Shown: positions 14,953 through 59,704 of the stretch, in pieces
Numbering within the stretch: position 1 is the first letter of the stretch
Layout: the number at the start of each line of letters is the position of its first letter
NCBI RefSeq assembly: GCF_004139715.1
Contig: NZ_CP035544.1
Coordinates: 1,550,001-1,614,000 of the forward strand
Length of the DNA stretch: 64,000 nucleotides
DNA from: Muriicola soli
Lineage (GTDB): Bacteria > Bacteroidota > Bacteroidia > Flavobacteriales > Flavobacteriaceae
Direction: 5' to 3'
The notes under the pieces: generated by a model
Seen by the model: the letters and a program-made list of their open reading frames with translations, nothing else
Databases searched by the model: none
Told to the model about the DNA's origin: nothing
Position numbers and translations under genes: made by a program

Positions 14953-15252
14953 CTAGGACCTTTCCAATCTGATATTGATAAATTTCTTCTTTAGGATCTT
15001 GATCCTTAGTTTTTTCATGCCCCTGGCAGAAAACTCTATTAAATCCCCTTCCGAGGCCGGAATTTCATAATTTCCTTTTTCATTGGTCTTAACAGTGATA
15101 TCGTTGCTCAGATTAACCACTTGTACATCTGCCAATGCTATATTCCCATTAAATACATATCCTGAAATAAAGGATGTATTTGCTTCCTCTTTCTTCCTGT
15201 TTCTAGATTTTTTATTGGTTTCTTGAAGTATCCGGTACTTTGCAACCTATAG
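14953..15252 (-). pseudogene. CarboxypepD_reg-like domain fragment, out of frame with the upstream gene
   Basis: A minus-strand frame without a proper start encodes ...SFISGYVFNGNIALADVQ, NEKGNYEIPASEGDLIEF and a stop after FINIRLERS. It resembles the carboxypeptidase-regulatory domain at the N-terminus of the gene at 16078-17829 (MVKTDVEGKYEIDTSEGDLVTF). The frame is open from about 15252, overlapping the 3' end of the 317-aa gene. Either a one-base change separated it from that gene, or it is the remnant of a third plug-type gene that lost its plug and TPR parts. It ends 11 nt after the convergent carboxylase gene. Confidence 0.55.
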
Positions 15253-16091
15253 GCCATGGCTGCATCCGATAACAATTGCCATGTATCCTGACTGGCATAT
15301 TTCTTATAGGAATCGGTAAACTTATTATTGGCTGCAGCCAATATAAGTCCAATCTTACTATTGCCGTACACCCTCAACAACTCCAAACTCGCAATAAAAT
15401 CGTCTTTTACAAACAGATCAAAAGGTCTCAGATCAACTTTGTAAAGCCCGGGGTATTTGATCGTATGAAGAATATTTTTTCCGCTTTCGTTTAGATTAGT
15501 TCCGGGGAGAGAACTCTTTCCGTCTGTTTTGTAGAAGTTAATCCTTATCAAAACGCTGTCAGCTGTGTTTCCAACAACCTCAAAAGTAAACTCATTGAGC
15601 CTGCGCAATCCCTTTCTGATCCGTATCCTCGTACCCAGTTCTCCCCCTAAAGCTATATTATCCTTCCAATAGCCATAAAACTGATGTCCCCCATTTTCAT
15701 AGCCGATCGATTCTTCACTTTCGTATAAACCCACATTTGTGACCACTACTTCGTTCAGCAATTCTACCTTGGGTTCCATGAGAATCCGGGGGTATTCATT
15801 ATAACGAAATTCGAGATCTGAGACCAGCTTGTTAATAGTAGTATATCCCAGTGCAGAGAACTGTAGCACTTCTTCCGCACTAAATAGTCCCCGATCCAGT
15901 TCTAGATGGAACAAGCCATCTTCATTACTCACGGTCCCAATACCCTTGTCCACAATACCTATATTGACAAAAGGGATGGGTTGATTTGTTTTCTTGTCTA
16001 CAATAATGCCTTTATAATCTTGCTGAGAATTGGCCAGATTAACTAAGGATATAAAAAGAAAATATGTAATAATTGATTTAATTCGAAACAA
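15138..16091 (-). CDS. Secreted CarboxypepD_reg-like domain protein
   Basis: The 317-aa protein has a signal peptide (MFRIKSIITYFLFISLVNLANS), then a carboxypeptidase-regulatory-like beta-sandwich (about 24-110; GIIVDKKTNQPIPFVNIGI, GTVSNEDGLFHLEL), then a conserved C-terminal half of Bacteroidota type with LLNEVVVTN and a beta-rich region (EFTFEVVGN, GLYKVDLRPFDLFVKDDFIASLELL). The start is a TTG that overlaps the stop of the upstream gene by 14 nt, so it is likely translationally coupled. The last about 20 residues (RKRKQIHPLFQDMYLMGI) look unnatural, and an out-of-frame homologous segment follows, so the 3' end may be frameshifted. Location should be envelope. Confidence 0.75.
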   Translation of the reverse strand: MFRIKSIITYFLFISLVNLANSQQDYKGIIVDKKTNQPIPFVNIGIVDKGIGTVSNEDGLFHLELDRGLFSAEEVLQFSALGYTTINKLVSDLEFRYNEYPRILMEPKVELLNEVVVTNVGLYESEESIGYENGGHQFYGYWKDNIALGGELGTRIRIRKGLRRLNEFTFEVVGNTADSVLIRINFYKTDGKSSLPGTNLNESGKNILHTIKYPGLYKVDLRPFDLFVKDDFIASLELLRVYGNSKIGLILAAANNKFTDSYKKYASQDTWQLLSDAAMAYRLQSTGYFKKPIKNLETGRKRKQIHPLFQDMYLMGI

Positions 16092-17829
16092 GGGATTGTG
16101 AATTTTGCACCTTGAATAGCTCCTGATTTACATTTTTTAACTGTAGCTTAAACACTTTCACTTCTTTGCGTTGCGACTGCGTCCCAAAGTTGGAATAGAT
16201 GGTCGCCTTTAAAAAGGTAGGGGTTAAACTCTTATTTCCTAAATAGGTTAGATTAATCTGCCAGGTACCGGTAAGGCTTCCGTCAATAAGGTACTCTTCG
16301 CAGGAATATCCCTTTATTTTCTCCTCTCGGATACGATCAGGATCGGCGAGCAAACTGTGCTCCCATTTGAAATACTTTTTCTCCGGATTAACAAATTGCA
16401 GTTCAAACTCCGCTTCGCTGTCATTCCATTCAAAAACAATACGGGTACCTTCAAAATCACTGTTCAGGGAAGGGCCCTTCTTTGCCTCTGTTCCTATCAA
16501 TTCCTTTCTGTGGAGTTCGAGCAGGTTGCTGAATTCACGTTCTATCAAGGGGGTAAATTCCTTGTCCTCTGCTGTAATAAAACCCTCAGAGATCAGGTAG
16601 TCATATCTGGCGTAGATGGCGGCCGACTTACGGTAATCGCCCACATCGACATAACTCAGGGCCAGATCCCTGTAGGACTGGGCATAATTAGGTCTCAATA
16701 TGAAAATTTCTTTGTAAAGTTCATGCGCCCTTTCTGTCCTACCCAGGGTTTGGTACAAGTAGGCCAAAGCCTTCATCCCCACCGGGTTTTCTTTAAATAA
16801 ATACCAATGATCCTCAATAATCTGATCAGCAAAGGACGTATTTTTCCACTTGGCAGCAAAATACCCAAAGACATCCAAAAAGTAATACGGGGAACTACTG
16901 TACTTTTTAGATTGAGATTTATAAAGTTCCAGAGCCTCTTCTTCCGACCCACTGGCATATAAGTCCTTGAGATAGGTAGGAACACTTGAGCTTAATTTGT
17001 CTTTCGAAAGTGCATTCCCTCCATAAATATTATTCCTCAACAAAGCCTGATCATAAGGGCCACCCGTTAGCGGTTCCCTAAAGGTATTTGCGCCTTTTGT
17101 ATTGATCACGATAATTCCTCCATTTCCTTGTCCTCCGTATTTATTCACAAGGCCAAGGCCGCTGAGAATAGCAATACGCTCAACGTTCTCTATGTTTACA
17201 AAATCCGGGAAATCTTTGAGAATTAAACCATCTACATCATAAATAGCGGGGAACATCCCCATTGCAGATCCTCTTAAGTATATCGTTGGCTTGTAGAAAT
17301 CACCGGAGCGGTCAACACGAATACCGGCCGCTCGGTATTGGATGGCAGATGCAAGATCAATGCCTCCAAAAAGGAATTGGGATTTATCGATAATCCTTAC
17401 AGAGAAGTTTGTGATTTCCTTGTCGAGAATTCCAAACGCAGTATTGATCAGGTTTTTATTGCTGTTGTATTCCTTTCGCAATTGAGCCTGACTTTTAATC
17501 TTTGTCTTTTCTACAACTACCTCGTCAAGGACATTTACTGCTGTATTTAATTTAATATTGAGGACCGAACTCACATCTTCCACCACGATCTCCATGTCGG
17601 ACAGACCGGGATATGAAAAGGTCACAAGGTCACCTTCCGAAGTGTCTATTTCGTACTTCCCTTCAACATCAGTTTTGACCATTTGCCCGCTCTTCTCGGA
17701 ACGCACTTCTGCATTAACTAACGGGGTTTCCATATTAGTCACCTTTCCCCTGATGGTAAGTTGATTCTCCTGAGCCTGCAATGCTGCAGTAAAACACAGA
17801 AGCAGGCTAAAAATAATTGTCTTTTTCAT
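16078..17829 (-). CDS. TonB-plug domain protein without barrel, with TPR-like region and C-terminal beta domain
   Basis: The 583-aa secreted protein has a signal peptide (to about residue 19), a CarboxypepD_reg domain (about 22-95), a TonB-dependent receptor plug domain (about 125-240; IRVDRSGDFYKPTIYLRG, IYDVDGLILKDFPDFVNIENVERIAILSG, GGQGNGGIIVINTKGA), a helical TPR-like region (about 300-420; KALAYLYQTLGRTERAHELYKEIF, SYRDLALSYVDVGDYRKSAAIY) and a beta domain (about 465-575; RIVFEWNDSEAEFELQFVNP). A TonB receptor would have a barrel of 500 or more residues after the plug; none is present. The C-terminal domain is shared with the next upstream gene. Function unknown; a periplasmic or surface scaffold is inferred. 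Confidence 0.8.
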   Translation of the reverse strand: MKKTIIFSLLLCFTAALQAQENQLTIRGKVTNMETPLVNAEVRSEKSGQMVKTDVEGKYEIDTSEGDLVTFSYPGLSDMEIVVEDVSSVLNIKLNTAVNVLDEVVVEKTKIKSQAQLRKEYNSNKNLINTAFGILDKEITNFSVRIIDKSQFLFGGIDLASAIQYRAAGIRVDRSGDFYKPTIYLRGSAMGMFPAIYDVDGLILKDFPDFVNIENVERIAILSGLGLVNKYGGQGNGGIIVINTKGANTFREPLTGGPYDQALLRNNIYGGNALSKDKLSSSVPTYLKDLYASGSEEEALELYKSQSKKYSSSPYYFLDVFGYFAAKWKNTSFADQIIEDHWYLFKENPVGMKALAYLYQTLGRTERAHELYKEIFILRPNYAQSYRDLALSYVDVGDYRKSAAIYARYDYLISEGFITAEDKEFTPLIEREFSNLLELHRKELIGTEAKKGPSLNSDFEGTRIVFEWNDSEAEFELQFVNPEKKYFKWEHSLLADPDRIREEKIKGYSCEEYLIDGSLTGTWQINLTYLGNKSLTPTFLKATIYSNFGTQSQRKEVKVFKLQLKNVNQELFKVQNSQSLVSN

Positions 17830-17908
17830 AGCGTTTTCTCAATTAAATGATCAGCAGTATTACCACAAAAAACCTGCCAATTCCCTTAAAATTAAGAAAA
17901 TTATTGAT

Positions 17909-20104
17909 TCAATTTACAAGCAGGGTTTTTAGTTGCTTAGTTTCCTGCCGACTGTTGAATACGACGACTATCTCTTCCGATTTTTGATCGGGATATCCAA
18001 AATTCTGATAGATGGTGCATTTTAATACAAAGGGCACCTGATTGGTCATGTTTATATGGTTTAAATAGGTAGCGTTAAGGATCCACTGTCCCTGAACTCC
18101 TTCTCCGTAGAATTCAAATTCCTCTGAAGTGTACCGATTTAAAATCTCGTCTTTCATTCGCTCTGCGTTGGAAATACTGTTGTGCTCCCAGTTAAAATAT
18201 CGTTTTTGAGGGTTCACAAACTGCAGATTAAATTCGGCTTCCGGATCGTTCCACTCAAAAACCAGGCGAACATTGTATTTAATGTTATTCAAGTAGTTGT
18301 CAGGGACCCCAGTCAAATTTAATTCACCCTTCTGCTTGAATACAAGATTCTTTAACTCCCTGTTTACTGTTTTGGCGATAGGCTTTACGGCCAGGTTTGG
18401 CGGTGCAGAATTTTCCTGCAATGCCAGCAGTTGCTGCAGTGCCTTATTATACTCACCCAGGCGCCTGTATGCAACAGCCAAATCGAGATACGCCTGCACG
18501 TTTTTATCGTCAATCTCAATGATCTCCTCATTGATCGCAAGCACTTGCAGATAATACCCTAATTCTGACAAGGCAAGAGAAACCGCCTTCATTGTCTTGA
18601 TATCCCTGGGAAACAGTTCAAGGATGCCAGAGGTTATTGTAGCAGCTTTTTGGCTGTCCCTGGTTTTGAAATAGTCGGCCGCATCAAAGAAAAACTCCAT
18701 CTCTGCTTCGGCCTTAGACCTCATCTTTAAATATGCAGTATATGCCTCTTCAGTGGAATTAGATAATTCCAGTGTTTTTCTGAACGCGGAACGACTTCCA
18801 ACAACGGCTTGTTCCTCATCGTAAATATTATCCGTGAGTCGGGCCAGATCCCGGGGTTCACCTGTTTGGTTAGCAGCTGCGGCACCTTTACTCGTTATGA
18901 GAATCACACCATTGGCTCCGATACTACCGTACTTATTGGTAGCCGCATAGCCTTTTAAAACTGAAATTGAGGCAATATTATCAGGGTTGATGTAATCAAA
19001 AACTTGCTGTCCGGAAACTGAAGCCCCCTTAGATGAATCGGATTGACGTTGTGGCACCCCGTCAATAACAACCAGACTGTAATTATTACCTAAAATTGAG
19101 GTGTTCGATCGCATTGTAGCTCTACTGATATCTTCGGTGTTTCCCAGGTTAACATTAGAGAATTTATTGATTACCGATTGAGACACATCTGTCTGAATCG
19201 GGTTGATTTCGTTTTCGTCTATCGATTGAGCTGCATAGCCCAATTTTTCGGCATTTTCCTTCCCATAAGCCGTCGTGACCATTGAAGTTTCCTCTTCTTG
19301 TCTTTTCTCAATCAGCGTAACCTCATCCAGGGTAAATACATTGCCTTCCAGGAACACATTCATCTGATCCGTATCTTCGACGGCTACCACCTTGTAGGTA
19401 TTGTTGCTCCTGCTGCTAATCAAGAGACTGTCTCCGGGATTCGCTTCTATGGAAAAACTTCCGTCAACTACAGACCTTGTACCCCCTGAAATACCCTTTA
19501 CTGCTATCACCACATCAGGTGTTGGTTGATTATCTACATACACTTTTCCTCTCACCAAATTCTTCCCACTACTTTGAACCTTTTTCAGACTGCCTATGTT
19601 CTCAGGTAAGATCGCCGCAAAGTCCATCAAGCGGTAACGGTTGATCAGGGCAGACCTCTTCAGGAATTCCTCGTCCCGGTTGGGCGAACTATTGATCAGA
19701 TAGCTTTTGGCAGGAAGCTCGGGATAATCTTTTTCAAAAACCCCGTTTCCATCAGTGAACATATAAATATTCGGGTGTTTGGCCTGGCCTTTTAATATGG
19801 CGTAATGGTTGGCTCCATCGTATGTAATGGCTAAAAGGTCTTTGCGCAAGCTTTCCCAATTACCCCCTTTAATTTGGTACGATCGTTCTTCAGTTTCGAT
19901 ATTGAACAGAACAAGTTGCACTTCCTGGTCTGGTGTGCGTTGAAATAATTTTCCAAGAACATCCAGCTCTTTCTCCAGATCTCTGTCTTTCATGGAAACA
20001 GATGTATCCCAGAAGATCGTCGTATTTGGATTCCTGATTTCCTGAGCCCCAAGAAAGGAGTTGCTCAACAATACTGTAATTAAAAAGACTATTAAATTTC
20101 TCAT
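17909..20104 (-). CDS. VWA-like / CarboxypepD_reg / TonB-plug / TPR / beta-domain multidomain protein
   Basis: The 731-aa secreted protein starts with a signal peptide (to about residue 20). Then come a von Willebrand A-like domain (about 25-160; TIFWDTSVSMKDRDLEKELD has a DxSxS metal-site motif, and PNIYMFTDGNGVF), a CarboxypepD_reg domain (about 183-265), a plug domain (about 285-405; YSLVVIDGVPQRQ, INPDNIASISVLKGYAA, GSIGANGVILITSKGA), a TPR-like helical region (about 440-590) and a C-terminal beta domain (about 625-725; LVFEWNDPEAEFNLQFVNPQ) shared with the downstream gene. No barrel follows the plug. It starts 1 nt after the M24 peptidase stop, so the genes are co-transcribed. The C-terminal domain is reminiscent of YfaP/DUF2135, a remote inference. 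Confidence 0.82.
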   Translation of the reverse strand: MRNLIVFLITVLLSNSFLGAQEIRNPNTTIFWDTSVSMKDRDLEKELDVLGKLFQRTPDQEVQLVLFNIETEERSYQIKGGNWESLRKDLLAITYDGANHYAILKGQAKHPNIYMFTDGNGVFEKDYPELPAKSYLINSSPNRDEEFLKRSALINRYRLMDFAAILPENIGSLKKVQSSGKNLVRGKVYVDNQPTPDVVIAVKGISGGTRSVVDGSFSIEANPGDSLLISSRSNNTYKVVAVEDTDQMNVFLEGNVFTLDEVTLIEKRQEEETSMVTTAYGKENAEKLGYAAQSIDENEINPIQTDVSQSVINKFSNVNLGNTEDISRATMRSNTSILGNNYSLVVIDGVPQRQSDSSKGASVSGQQVFDYINPDNIASISVLKGYAATNKYGSIGANGVILITSKGAAAANQTGEPRDLARLTDNIYDEEQAVVGSRSAFRKTLELSNSTEEAYTAYLKMRSKAEAEMEFFFDAADYFKTRDSQKAATITSGILELFPRDIKTMKAVSLALSELGYYLQVLAINEEIIEIDDKNVQAYLDLAVAYRRLGEYNKALQQLLALQENSAPPNLAVKPIAKTVNRELKNLVFKQKGELNLTGVPDNYLNNIKYNVRLVFEWNDPEAEFNLQFVNPQKRYFNWEHNSISNAERMKDEILNRYTSEEFEFYGEGVQGQWILNATYLNHINMTNQVPFVLKCTIYQNFGYPDQKSEEIVVVFNSRQETKQLKTLLVN

Positions 20105-20105
20105 A

Positions 20106-21488
20106 TCATTGACCTTGGTGGGGCATTGGCCTTGGTATTAGAAGTAAATCGGTTTGTCTGCCATTCACATATCTGAACCCTTCAGGGCCAAAAAACCCTG
20201 CTTCTTCCAGCATGATACGGATATCGCGTTTCCACTGCGGAATATTCACAGTGGTATTGAGCTCAATGGCATAAACCGTGTTAGGATTGAGGGGGTAGTT
20301 ATCCCCGTCATCTTTCATCACTCCACCCTGGGCATCCCACATCCCAATGGTTGTTCCTGCAGAATGACCGTACATGCCTAAAGGATGAGTATATATTGCT
20401 GGGCGAAGCCCTTCTGCCCTGCCTGCCGCCAGGGCTTTAGCCAGGATCTGATTCCCTGTCATCCCCTCTTTCATATTTTCGGTAAGATGATCCTGAACTC
20501 TGTTTCCTTTTTTTAAAGCCTCAACAAGGAATTTGGGCGGGGTGGTCTCATCTGGCTTGAGGACATAAGCCAATTCCTGACAGTCGGTATTAAGCCTGAG
20601 GTAGGTGATCCCAAAATCGCAATGCAATAAATCGCCGGGCAGGATGACCATATCATCGGGCCTGCCCGAAAATGAATACAAATGACTCACCAGAGTTTCA
20701 TTTGTCCGTTGTATGTCTACTGTAGGATGAAACCAGGTCTCAAGGCCCAGATCCGTAACTTTCTGCCGCATCCACCACTCCACCTCTGAGGTAGTGGTAA
20801 TCCCGGGAGTGATTACCTTTTCTGAAAATGCTTCCTTGATAATTTCATGGGTTATGCTGACCAACTGAGAAAAAATGACCATTTCGCGTTCTGTGCGGGT
20901 TTCTATCCATCGCACGGCGAGTTGCTCTGCCGAGCCCACTCTTTTATGATAACGGGAAGGGAGGTATCCCATAAACTCGTCATAATCTGTCTTGTCGAGT
21001 CCGTCTGCAATATTGTGGTCCCTGGAATAATTGAGTCCGATTTTGGATGGATTTTTTTCTTCGATGATTTCCATAAGGCGTTTCCACTGATTGGGCTGTT
21101 CTTCCTTATCCCAGGCCGAATCAATATTTTTGCCGACATTATAACGCGCAACAGCGAGCTTTTCAATGGTATTTTTAGCCGTATCCCTATAGAACACCAG
21201 TATGGTTCTGCGTCTGGCATTGAGCCAGGTGGCTGGCAGCATGGTCCGAAGTACAGGATCCTCATTGTACTCGCGGGAAATAAGTATCCACATATCGAAA
21301 CCGGTCTTGTCCATTAGCTGGGGAAGAAGGGTGTTAAAACGCGTAGAAAGGATTTCATCAACTACCCGGGCGCGATCCTCCTCAGGCAGGATATGCTGGG
21401 AAAACCCAGGGGTAATTGCCCAAAGGAAGCAGAGAATTAAACAATATTTAAATGGAAAAAAATTAAAACGATTTAAGTATGAAACCAT
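20106..21488 (-). CDS. Secreted M24-family metallopeptidase (Xaa-Pro aminopeptidase-like)
   Basis: The 460-aa protein has an N-terminal signal peptide (hydrophobic to about residue 30) followed by a creatinase/aminopeptidase-type N-domain and an M24 pita-bread domain. Metal ligands can be read: Asp in LLHCDFGITY, Asp in RLNTDCQE, His in YTHPLGMYGHSAG, Glu in YAIELNTTV, and Glu in MLEEAGFFG. Enzymes of this type remove an N-terminal residue before proline, or cleave related X-Pro bonds. It probably works in the periplasm on imported peptides. It is the first gene of the operon ending at about 14953, with only 1 nt to the VWA/plug gene. Confidence 0.87.
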   Translation of the reverse strand: MVSYLNRFNFFPFKYCLILCFLWAITPGFSQHILPEEDRARVVDEILSTRFNTLLPQLMDKTGFDMWILISREYNEDPVLRTMLPATWLNARRRTILVFYRDTAKNTIEKLAVARYNVGKNIDSAWDKEEQPNQWKRLMEIIEEKNPSKIGLNYSRDHNIADGLDKTDYDEFMGYLPSRYHKRVGSAEQLAVRWIETRTEREMVIFSQLVSITHEIIKEAFSEKVITPGITTTSEVEWWMRQKVTDLGLETWFHPTVDIQRTNETLVSHLYSFSGRPDDMVILPGDLLHCDFGITYLRLNTDCQELAYVLKPDETTPPKFLVEALKKGNRVQDHLTENMKEGMTGNQILAKALAAGRAEGLRPAIYTHPLGMYGHSAGTTIGMWDAQGGVMKDDGDNYPLNPNTVYAIELNTTVNIPQWKRDIRIMLEEAGFFGPEGFRYVNGRQTDLLLIPRPMPHQGQ

Positions 21489-21562
21489 AAAGCTTAGAGT
21501 AGATAAAATTATGTTTCAAAATACGGCTTTTTAGGGAAATTAAAATGCCCTTATATTTAAGA

Positions 21563-22216
21563 ATGAAATTATCTTCCTTCTTTGTCACGGTCATGCTCGT
21601 CTTATCTATGGCCTGCTTTTAAAGTAAGAAGATCTCCATGCCCGAGTTACCCGATCCTGTCATACTTTTTCAGGTAAAAAATATTGTTTTTATCGGTAAC
21701 AGTCATACCCATTTTTAAGTGGGCTTGTATTTCTATCAAAGGAATTTACCGCGGTGGCCGATCTTGACTACACACCTGCTATCGATAAAATTGCAATAGA
21801 TGGCGCCACGATGCAGGATCACGCTGAAAGTGCAAGTACGATAAACAAATTAAGTAAAAAGGAAATTCGACTGAGATCTGCATGTTTACTATCCGGGCCT
21901 ATGTGGATCAATCCGGGATGCTAGCTAATATTTTTGCCACTTATGCACAGGCAGCACCTCTTGTATCCGGTATTGTAGGCCTATAGTATTGGGATTACAA
22001 AAGATATAAGATGATCCTCTAAGTGAAGTTATGTTTTACAGTGTTGATGGGGTCCATCCCAGCGAGGCAGGTTCTTTTTTTACAGCTGCCTTGTTTTATA
22101 CAACCATATACGGTAAAGATCCGTCAATTAATCCTTGTACCGCCTCCCTAAAACCGGCCACGGCCCTTTATCTCAAGGAAAAAGCAAAAGAAGTCTGGGA
22201 AAACTATCAAGATTAA
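21563..22216 (+). pseudogene. Decayed SGNH-type hydrolase (lipoprotein) gene
   Basis: The stretch between the M24 gene and menE carries pieces of an SGNH/GDSL-like hydrolase in different frames. A lipoprotein start MKLSSFFVTVMLVLSMACF stops at 21620. VKNIVFIGNSHTHF (block I, GNSHT at 21695-21709) stops at 21716. A middle part reads DGATMQDHAESASTINKLSK and YVDQSGMLANIFATYAQAA. The end reads SVDGVHPSEAGSFFTAALFY (block V, DxxH, near 22040-22085), TAG-free to TAA at 22214. Several stops and frameshifts make it non-functional as read. No transposon is seen. Its end overlaps menE by 4 nt. Confidence 0.75.
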
Positions 22217-59565: not shown

Positions 59566-59670
59566 ACAAAAAAAAGGCAAGCTACCTACATCGCACCGCT
59601 ACGACCGTATACCCTTGCTGCGTTCCCACCCTGGGGGATTCTACAGGAGCTGGTCGTGTAGGACTTGCCT
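59566..59670 (-). ncRNA. ffs: Small signal recognition particle RNA (4.5S-type)
   Basis: On the minus strand 59670-59575 forms a long hairpin: AGGCAAG at the 5' end pairs with CTTGCCT at the 3' end, and the apex has CCCCCAGGGTGGGAACGCAGCAAGGG. The conserved SRP core 5' CAGG and 3' GCAGCA around a GGAA tetraloop is present. The RNA binds Ffh and targets ribosomes to the membrane. A T run (59574-59566 on plus appears as A) forms its terminator, and TTG-N19-TATATTTG (59675-59704) lies just upstream. Length of about 96 nt is normal for the small bacterial type. It is in the gap between the SDR and glutaminyl-cyclase genes. Confidence 0.93.
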
Positions 59671-59674
59671 CGTG

Positions 59675-59704
59675 CAAATATACAACCTTTTAAATTTGAG
59701 ACAA
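59675..59704 (-). promoter_or_regulatory. Promoter of SRP RNA (TTG-N19-TATATTTG)
   Basis: TTG (59702-59704) and TATATTTG (59675-59682) on the minus strand are 19 bases apart, a perfect match to the Bacteroidota consensus. Its -7 element ends only 4 bases before the first base of the RNA. Confidence 0.8.

Follow-up and report, generated by a model that had tools for sequence, protein, structure and literature searches.

Plug domains without a barrel and a conserved TonB box in an M24 peptidase operon of Muriicola soli

The window analysed here, a stretch of 64,000 nucleotides of Muriicola soli (contig NZ_CP035544.1, positions 1,550,001 to 1,614,000), contains a compact operon of four genes at 14953-21488, all on the minus strand, in which an M24-family peptidase (g1) is followed by g2, g3 and g4; the surrounding genome is 3.07 Mb in a single contig. 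The g2 and g3 proteins carry the plug domain of TonB-linked receptors in front of TPR and DUF2135-like domains, with no receptor barrel, a TonB-box motif is conserved in g2, g3 and g4, and the operon is conserved in related flavobacteria. The textbook role of TonB is to energise transporters of the outer membrane. We propose, at somewhat less than even chances, that this operon encodes a soluble periplasmic complex whose TonB boxes recruit TonB to a protein machine that is not a transporter. The parts are known, and as far as the literature searched extends, their combination and the occurrence of a TonB box without receptor or plug are apparently undescribed: the titles and abstract starts of the papers listed from the open-licence PubMed Central (PMC) literature yielded no description of the operon or of barrel-less plug-TPR-DUF2135 proteins, in keeping with the original prediction from the sequence, which had taken the system as possibly uncharacterised.

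Plug domains in g2 and g3

The g2 protein (731 residues; 17909-20104, minus strand) can be divided into VWA, CarboxypepD_reg (CpD), TonB box, plug, TPR and DUF2135-like parts. Its plug (residues 288-400; 18905-19243) matches PF07715 at 37 bits, above the Pfam cut-off of 23.9, and the g2 profile finds the SusC chain 5fq6 at E=1.5e-27 over both box and plug. TPR_17 is recognised at 26 bits (cut-off 24.4), and CpD, at 20.5 bits, lies under its cut-off of 32.2. The VWA-like domain (residues ~28-160; 19625-20023) is assigned from the family alignment, in which 5 of 17 rows match VWA_2 at E<=0.01 and D33, S35 and S37 of the DxSxS motif are invariant in the 17 rows, together with D118; Pfam does not call it in the g2 of the window.

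The shorter g3 protein (583 residues; 16078-17829, minus strand) has the order CpD, TonB box, plug, TPR and DUF2135-like domain, and taken alone it falls short of the Pfam cut-offs for both CpD (31.7 against 32.2 bits) and plug (19.7 against 23.9 bits). The g3 family profile, in turn, matches SusC 5t3r over the plug stretch (independent E-value 7.3e-12) and the CpD stretch (1.4e-8), with a combined value of 6.6e-22, and the plug sequence is detectable at E<=0.01 in 33 of 82 family rows. An AlphaFold model built with 82 sequences (mean predicted local distance difference test score, pLDDT, 86; predicted template modelling score, pTM, 0.67) shows CpD first, then the TonB-box stretch at low confidence, the plug, the TPR helices and, at the C-terminus, a beta domain. 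In VIA-align the plug of the model (residues 137-246; 17092-17421) corresponds to that of SusC BT1763 (6z9a_B; Z 10.1, root-mean-square deviation (rmsd) 3.2 over 107 residues), and the model also aligns with the N-terminal extension (NTE) of SusC BT3090 (Z 13.9, rmsd 2.2, 79 residues).

What follows the plug in both proteins is TPR and DUF2135-like domains, and none of the genome's 21 PF00593 barrel matches falls at the operon. The C-terminal beta domain (residues ~613-722 of g2, 17939-18268, defined by the family alignment; residues 461-576 of g3, 16102-16449, the best-conserved segment of that family) had been put forward as a candidate DUF2135 domain, and we call it DUF2135-like: PF09906 remains sub-threshold in the window proteins (12.8 bits in g2, 14.5 in g3, cut-off 22), is found at E<=0.01 in 51 of 82 g3 rows and exceeds the cut-off in the long relatives L021, L022, L031 and L033. 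Among the VIA-align matches listed, which TPR and CpD matches occupied, this domain has no row of its own. Thus, profiles and fold together confirm the predicted union of plug, TPR-like repeats and a common C-terminal beta domain without a barrel, with VWA in addition in g2, and the outcome that was to overturn the prediction, namely plug-like segments without a plug fold, is contradicted by the SusC profile and fold matches.

The SusC/RagA receptors (TIGR04056, N-terminal half) share with g2 and g3 the succession CpD/NTE, TonB box, plug, and differ in having a barrel where g2 and g3 have TPR and DUF2135-like domains; the window proteins score 99 and 57 bits against TIGR04056, whose cut-off is 368. 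Another non-barrel periplasmic protein, BamP of the Flavobacterium johnsoniae BAM complex, as described in PMC12611786, matches the CpD of g3 with its N-terminal part (9n2d_E; Z 10.5, rmsd 3.4, 80 residues). The likeness is confined to CpD, and g3 scores 31.2 bits against NF053692, for which the equivalog cut-off is 230.

The TonB box with and without a plug

In SusC BT1763 the TonB box reads DEVVVTG, function is lost when VDEVVV is deleted, and the nuclear magnetic resonance structure of the isolated NTE shows the box as unstructured or flexible (PMC7782687). The g3 protein has LDEVVV at the same position (residues 101-106; 17512-17529), and its residues 101-109 have pLDDT below 50. The leucine is present in 82 of 82 rows, V104 in 81 and E103 in 74, and the box averages 3.63 bits per column, as against 1.97 just downstream, 2.39 in CpD and 2.36 in the plug, which ranks it 26th of 578 six-residue windows. 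By sequence pattern, equivalent motifs are LDEVTL in g2 (residues 259-264; 19313-19330) and LNEVVV in g4 (residues 112-117; 15741-15758). The pattern L[DNEQ]E[VI][VITL][VIL] occurs at the box columns in 65 of 82 g3, 15 of 17 g2 and 20 of 22 g4 rows and nowhere else in any of these rows; rows that depart from it have close variants, for example LKEVVV or LDNVTV. Judged by sequence only, g3 and g2 therefore have a TonB box after the NTE/CpD domain, and its conservation points to the box as a working part of the operon proteins.

The last gene of the operon, g4 (14953-16091, minus strand), lacks a plug and nonetheless keeps the box, again at pLDDT below 50. It combines a CpD (51 bits, in agreement with the original prediction that a fourth gene has the same domain) with the TonB-box-like motif, a lectin-like jelly roll and a second CpD. 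The open reading frame ends at 15138 after a one-base frame shift near 15.2 kb, beyond which the next frame encodes the second CpD, as in the related locus L036, and stops at 14953-14955; the left edge of the operon at 14953 had thus been placed correctly. Since the L036 orthologue is intact (379 residues) and the shifted tail still looks constrained (nonsynonymous rate dN 0.034, synonymous rate dS 0.586 over 77 codons), the shift is a recent event or a sequencing error. In the g4 model (mean pLDDT 80, pTM 0.46) the middle domain resembles Cwp84 (VIA-align Z 13.9, rmsd 2.9, 147 residues), the phi812 baseplate and esterase N-terminal domains, at Z 10-15; such matches reflect a common jelly roll rather than a function, and the ligand of the lectin-like fold may be a glycan or a surface structure. 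Twenty-two loci have a recognisable g4, always downstream of a plug gene, and in L018, L087, L119 and L154 it forms a fusion with g2- or g3-type proteins.

A box-like motif is also found in relatives that lack the plug altogether. These occur in other genera and in another family of the order, and we collected 30 plug-less VIT-VWA-TPR-DUF2135 proteins: 27 from 30 fetched loci, the other three having a plug, together with L129, L147 and L148. That they lack both CpD and plug was established with local profiles for all 30 and with Pfam for 14; L132, which has CpD and no plug, and the broken L146 were excluded (the latter carries the box, the former does not). The linker between VWA and TPR holds a box-like motif in 18 of the 30, where shuffled linkers lead one to expect 0.57, and the strict form in 16 (0.16 expected), with no occurrence elsewhere in these proteins; examples are IEEVVVTGALGIRRSEKS (L163) and LNEVVVVGYSPRRKAAM (L121). 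Counted by genus, the motif appears at least once in six of ten and in none of the members of four; one of the six, that of L180, has it only as VEEIIV. Ten of the 30 retain a plug-helix fragment (0.001 expected in shuffles). Box and fragment occur together in seven, six times with the box first and once with the fragment first, and nine proteins have neither by these patterns. These linkers suggest that a CpD-box-plug cassette was probably present in the ancestor and then eroded, the box being the part that survived longest. In a single, marginal case (L113/L135, G160), residues 679-749 of a VIT-VWA-TPR-DUF2135 protein, which form the slot of the cassette, match a TonB C-terminal domain at 25.0 bits (cut-off 24.6). 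The linkers of L159, L166, L176, L179 and L181 have differing short box or plug-helix remnants at the same position, as though erosion of the cassette had taken several courses.

Gene order, distribution and relatives

The operon is led by g1 (460 residues; 20106-21488, minus strand), which matches PF00557 at 51 bits (cut-off 23) and has a signal peptide; signal peptides of the operon proteins were judged by eye. The earlier description of a secreted M24 peptidase at the head of the operon is thus upheld. Its candidate metal ligands, D291, D302, H375, E409 and E428/E429, were assigned by eye from the D-D-H-E-E pattern of the M24 family. These columns are invariant in 24 of 24 alignment rows, and the peptidase looks catalytically competent on this evidence. 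A PDB sequence search with g1 gave no match at E<=0.001. The genes are closely spaced, with 1 bp between g1 and g2, 79 bp between g2 and g3 and an overlap of 14 bp between g3 and g4. A sigma-70 scan found 14 promoter-like sites, with 15.5 expected. We also considered an anti-phage defence system and set it aside, as PADLOC returned 0 families at E<=0.01 for the four proteins (g4 being represented by its L036 orthologue).

Conservation of the gene order had been proposed as a check on the prediction, and it holds. A g3 query of named genome records gave 59 loci, 52 of them longer than 9 kb; among the best named matches are those in two species of Muriicola (74% identity) and in a metagenome-assembled Flavobacteriaceae genome (90%). 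M24 is followed by one or more plug genes on the same strand in 48 of the 52 long loci, with a gap of at most 189 bp in 46 of the 48. Of the four long loci without M24, two are truncated where their contig ends (L036, L043) and two have different surroundings (L075, L083). The number of plug genes per locus is one in 16, two in 19, three in 11, four in 4 and five in 2. The site looks vertically inherited, because the flanking genes recur across loci; these are a carboxyl transferase and a GFO oxidoreductase (by Pfam in the window) and menE-, menC-, CPBP- and ABC-F-like genes (by eye). The identified conserved neighbours include no barrel gene, the unlabelled neighbours being unscanned. The operon genes are under purifying selection: in comparison with L036, dN and dS are 0.051 and 0.788 for g3, 0.092 and 1.138 for g2 (573 codons) and 0.086 and 0.863 for the first 284 codons of g4, and in comparison with L042 dS is saturated for g1 and g2.

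Across 249 Flavobacteriaceae genomes, M24 orthologues are found at E<=1e-100 in 91. The plug-TPR family was counted among the matches listed, down to ~1e-42, and this scope applies to all counts of it here; 195 of the 249 genomes match the plug-TPR query at 1e-20, the weaker matches being taken as receptors without a check. The family is present in at least 81 genomes and co-occurs with M24 in 56, an association with Fisher p=3e-13 when kinship is ignored. Both genes are within 12 kb of each other in 39 of the 56, with the plug gene downstream on the same strand in 32, and the 64 close pairs comprise 56 with the plug gene downstream and 8 with it upstream, all on the same strand. A wider sample of the phylum, 345 genomes, has matches at 1e-35 in 10, of which two are not Flavobacteriaceae. 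The operon is a feature of the Muriicola-Maribacter-Allomuricauda group of flavobacteria.

The prediction had also seen g2 and g3 as a duplicated pair. They are indeed paralogues, and the duplication is old: their identity of 31% and their separate tree positions rule out a recent tandem origin. In a midpoint-rooted FastTree phylogeny 95 g3 proteins form a clade (support 0.937) and g2 shares a 50-tip node with the VIT proteins (0.85), the node joining g2 alone (25 tips) having a support of just 0.01. Five g3-labelled tips fall within the 50-tip node, among them L036_55, a truncated g2. At multi-copy loci 16 of 88 g3 copies have a sister from the same locus. The longer relatives on the g2 side of the tree, of ~1050-1220 residues, have the order VIT-VWA-CpD-plug-TPR-DUF2135. 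They belong with VIT-VWA proteins (PF08487, with weak TIGR03788 and TIGR04477 matches) and share the CpD-plug-TPR-DUF2135 part with the window proteins, whereas g2 lacks VIT and g3 lacks both VIT and VWA; the window proteins show no VIT match, and the genome has none at E<=1e-6. The kinship of the two old paralogues, g2 and g3, with these proteins makes the barrel-less plugs a family.

Plugs have been joined to VWA domains in a further way. In 11 loci a gene upstream of M24 (for example, L067:1880-4042) encodes a YfbK-type VWA protein that begins with a CpD; the distance is -17 to 180 bp in ten, and in L050, where a further gene intervenes, it is 823 bp. All seven that were scanned contain CpD, vWF_A, VWA and YfbK_C; five have a plug above its cut-off, L038 has one under it and none is reported for L041. 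Such CpD(-plug)-YfbK genes are also neighbours of VIT-plug genes in L136, L149, L150 and, there without a plug match, L134. Plug and VWA modules have therefore come together repeatedly. These YfbK proteins (PF12450, PF12034) have CpD and, in most of those scanned, a plug, and differ from the window proteins and the L036 orthologue of g4, from which the YfbK domains are absent. L144 is likewise listed with a YfbK-type protein of this kind beside M24 or VIT-plug genes. In addition, the genome encodes two plug-only proteins of 137 and 133 residues (L105:735-1148, at ~1.830 Mb, and L107:802-1203, at ~45 kb), lipoproteins by eye and without a barrel. The premise that a plug normally comes with a barrel is countered by the VIT-plug, YfbK-plug and plug-only proteins.

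Possible functions of the operon proteins

In the reading that we prefer, g2 and g3 have the N-terminal part of a SusC-type receptor, with CpD/NTE, box and plug, set before a TPR scaffold and a DUF2135-like domain, and g4 has a CpD and TonB box set before a lectin-like domain. The boxes would recruit TonB, and the proton-driven TonB-ExbBD motor would act on a non-transporter, with TonB supplying docking or pulling. The VWA, TPR, DUF2135-like and lectin-like modules may hold partners, and the M24 peptidase may trim peptides or protein N-termini handled by the complex. The signal peptides and the missing barrel suggest a location in the periplasm, and it is from the sequences that we infer TonB binding, complex formation and a substrate for M24. 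A broader version of this proposal, in which soluble periplasmic VWA/TPR/DUF2135 proteins with a plug, without one, or with a TonB C-terminal domain in its slot form a second class of TonB client, seems to us doubtful. The vWA force transducers, as presented in PMC12204202, are VWA proteins tied to TonB/TolA-type motors with a TPR gene as neighbour, as here; they carry the transducer end (a transmembrane helix), whereas the operon proteins carry the receiving end (TonB box and plug). If the broader proposal is true, soluble envelope proteins join the clients of TonB, whose proton-driven motor would then pull or switch machines other than transporters in Bacteroidota. Being short and easily mutated, the box lends itself to direct tests of its effect in marine flavobacteria that can be cultured.

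Several observations weigh against this proposal. The box pattern fails in 17 of 82 g3 rows, and the C-terminal domain of g3 (mean 2.98 bits per column), not the box, holds the top conservation ranks. No box-like motif is seen in 12 of the 30 plug-less relatives, and it is absent from some genera (0 of 4 in g128). The linker pattern was written after L121 (=L155), L147 and L152 (=L168) had been seen, and without them the count is 15 of 27; moreover, 18 of the 30 proteins, 13 of them with the box, come from one genus, and the shuffles ignore kinship. Part of the linker pattern is inheritance from a decayed plug cassette, because the plug-helix fragment survives in 10 of the 30. Among the genomes, M24 is absent (E<=1e-100) from 25 of the 81 with the plug family, the plug family is missing among the matches listed in 35 of the 91 with M24, and the two are often separate, being within 12 kb in only 39 of 56.

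Some of these facts are what one would expect if a VIT-VWA-TPR-DUF2135 protein had captured a CpD-box-plug cassette that is now a structural spacer, a view that we regard as rather unlikely. Function would then reside in VWA, TPR and DUF2135, and the box would be the structural end of CpD, or the decay would be recent. The persistence of plug-helix fragments, the drifting plug sequence of g3 and the high conservation of the C-terminal domain all favour it, whereas retention of the box without CpD or plug amid a strongly diverged linker (L121, L146, one genus) speaks against it and the low pLDDT at the g3 and g4 boxes argues against a structural CpD end. It is unlikely that the plugs act in trans, entering or regulating the barrels of other receptors (plug-less or temporarily emptied SusC) as lid or chaperone. 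Retention of the plug fold in g3, published SusC structures with a displaced plug (PMC7782687) and a 597-residue barrel protein without a plug match in the same genome are consistent with that idea; several relatives, however, keep the box and not the plug, and the search for a barrel among the neighbours gave nothing in its favour. The 692-720-residue gene upstream of M24, a candidate for such a receptor, is a YfbK-type VWA protein in seven of seven scanned, and no identified conserved neighbour is a barrel gene (unlabelled neighbours unscanned), so that a TonB-receptor partner, one of the roles originally suggested, is not supported.

Least probable, in our estimation, is a nutritional operon in which g2, g3 and g4 bind peptides or glycopeptides from a RagAB-like importer and M24 frees their N-terminal residues. 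The competent-looking M24 residues, the lectin-like domain of g4 and the presence of up to five plug genes per locus, which could mean substrate diversification, would fit such a role. Against it, no importer or SusD gene is found among the identified neighbours (mostly by eye; unlabelled ones unscanned) and evidence for a substrate is wholly absent; the related suggestion of peptide presentation by the complex likewise finds no support.

The plug-less barrel protein mentioned above is encoded at L185:1349-3142 (~2.135 Mb), matches PF00593 with no plug match in the genome scan and lies beside a TPR-like gene. In L142, L143 and L153 a gene for 1032-1061 residues is placed between the plug gene and M24; a role as membrane transporter was considered for the 1057-residue protein of L142 and is unsupported, as no Pfam family matches at E<=0.001. 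A small protein of 158-174 residues with an RGQRGYxPPP motif and a lysine-rich tail is encoded beside plug genes in L115, L118, L142 and L143. Within the window, 21560-22215, between M24 and the menE-like gene, resembles by eye a decayed hydrolase gene in several frames, and a Bacteroidales small signal recognition particle RNA is found at 59571-59677 (110 bits).

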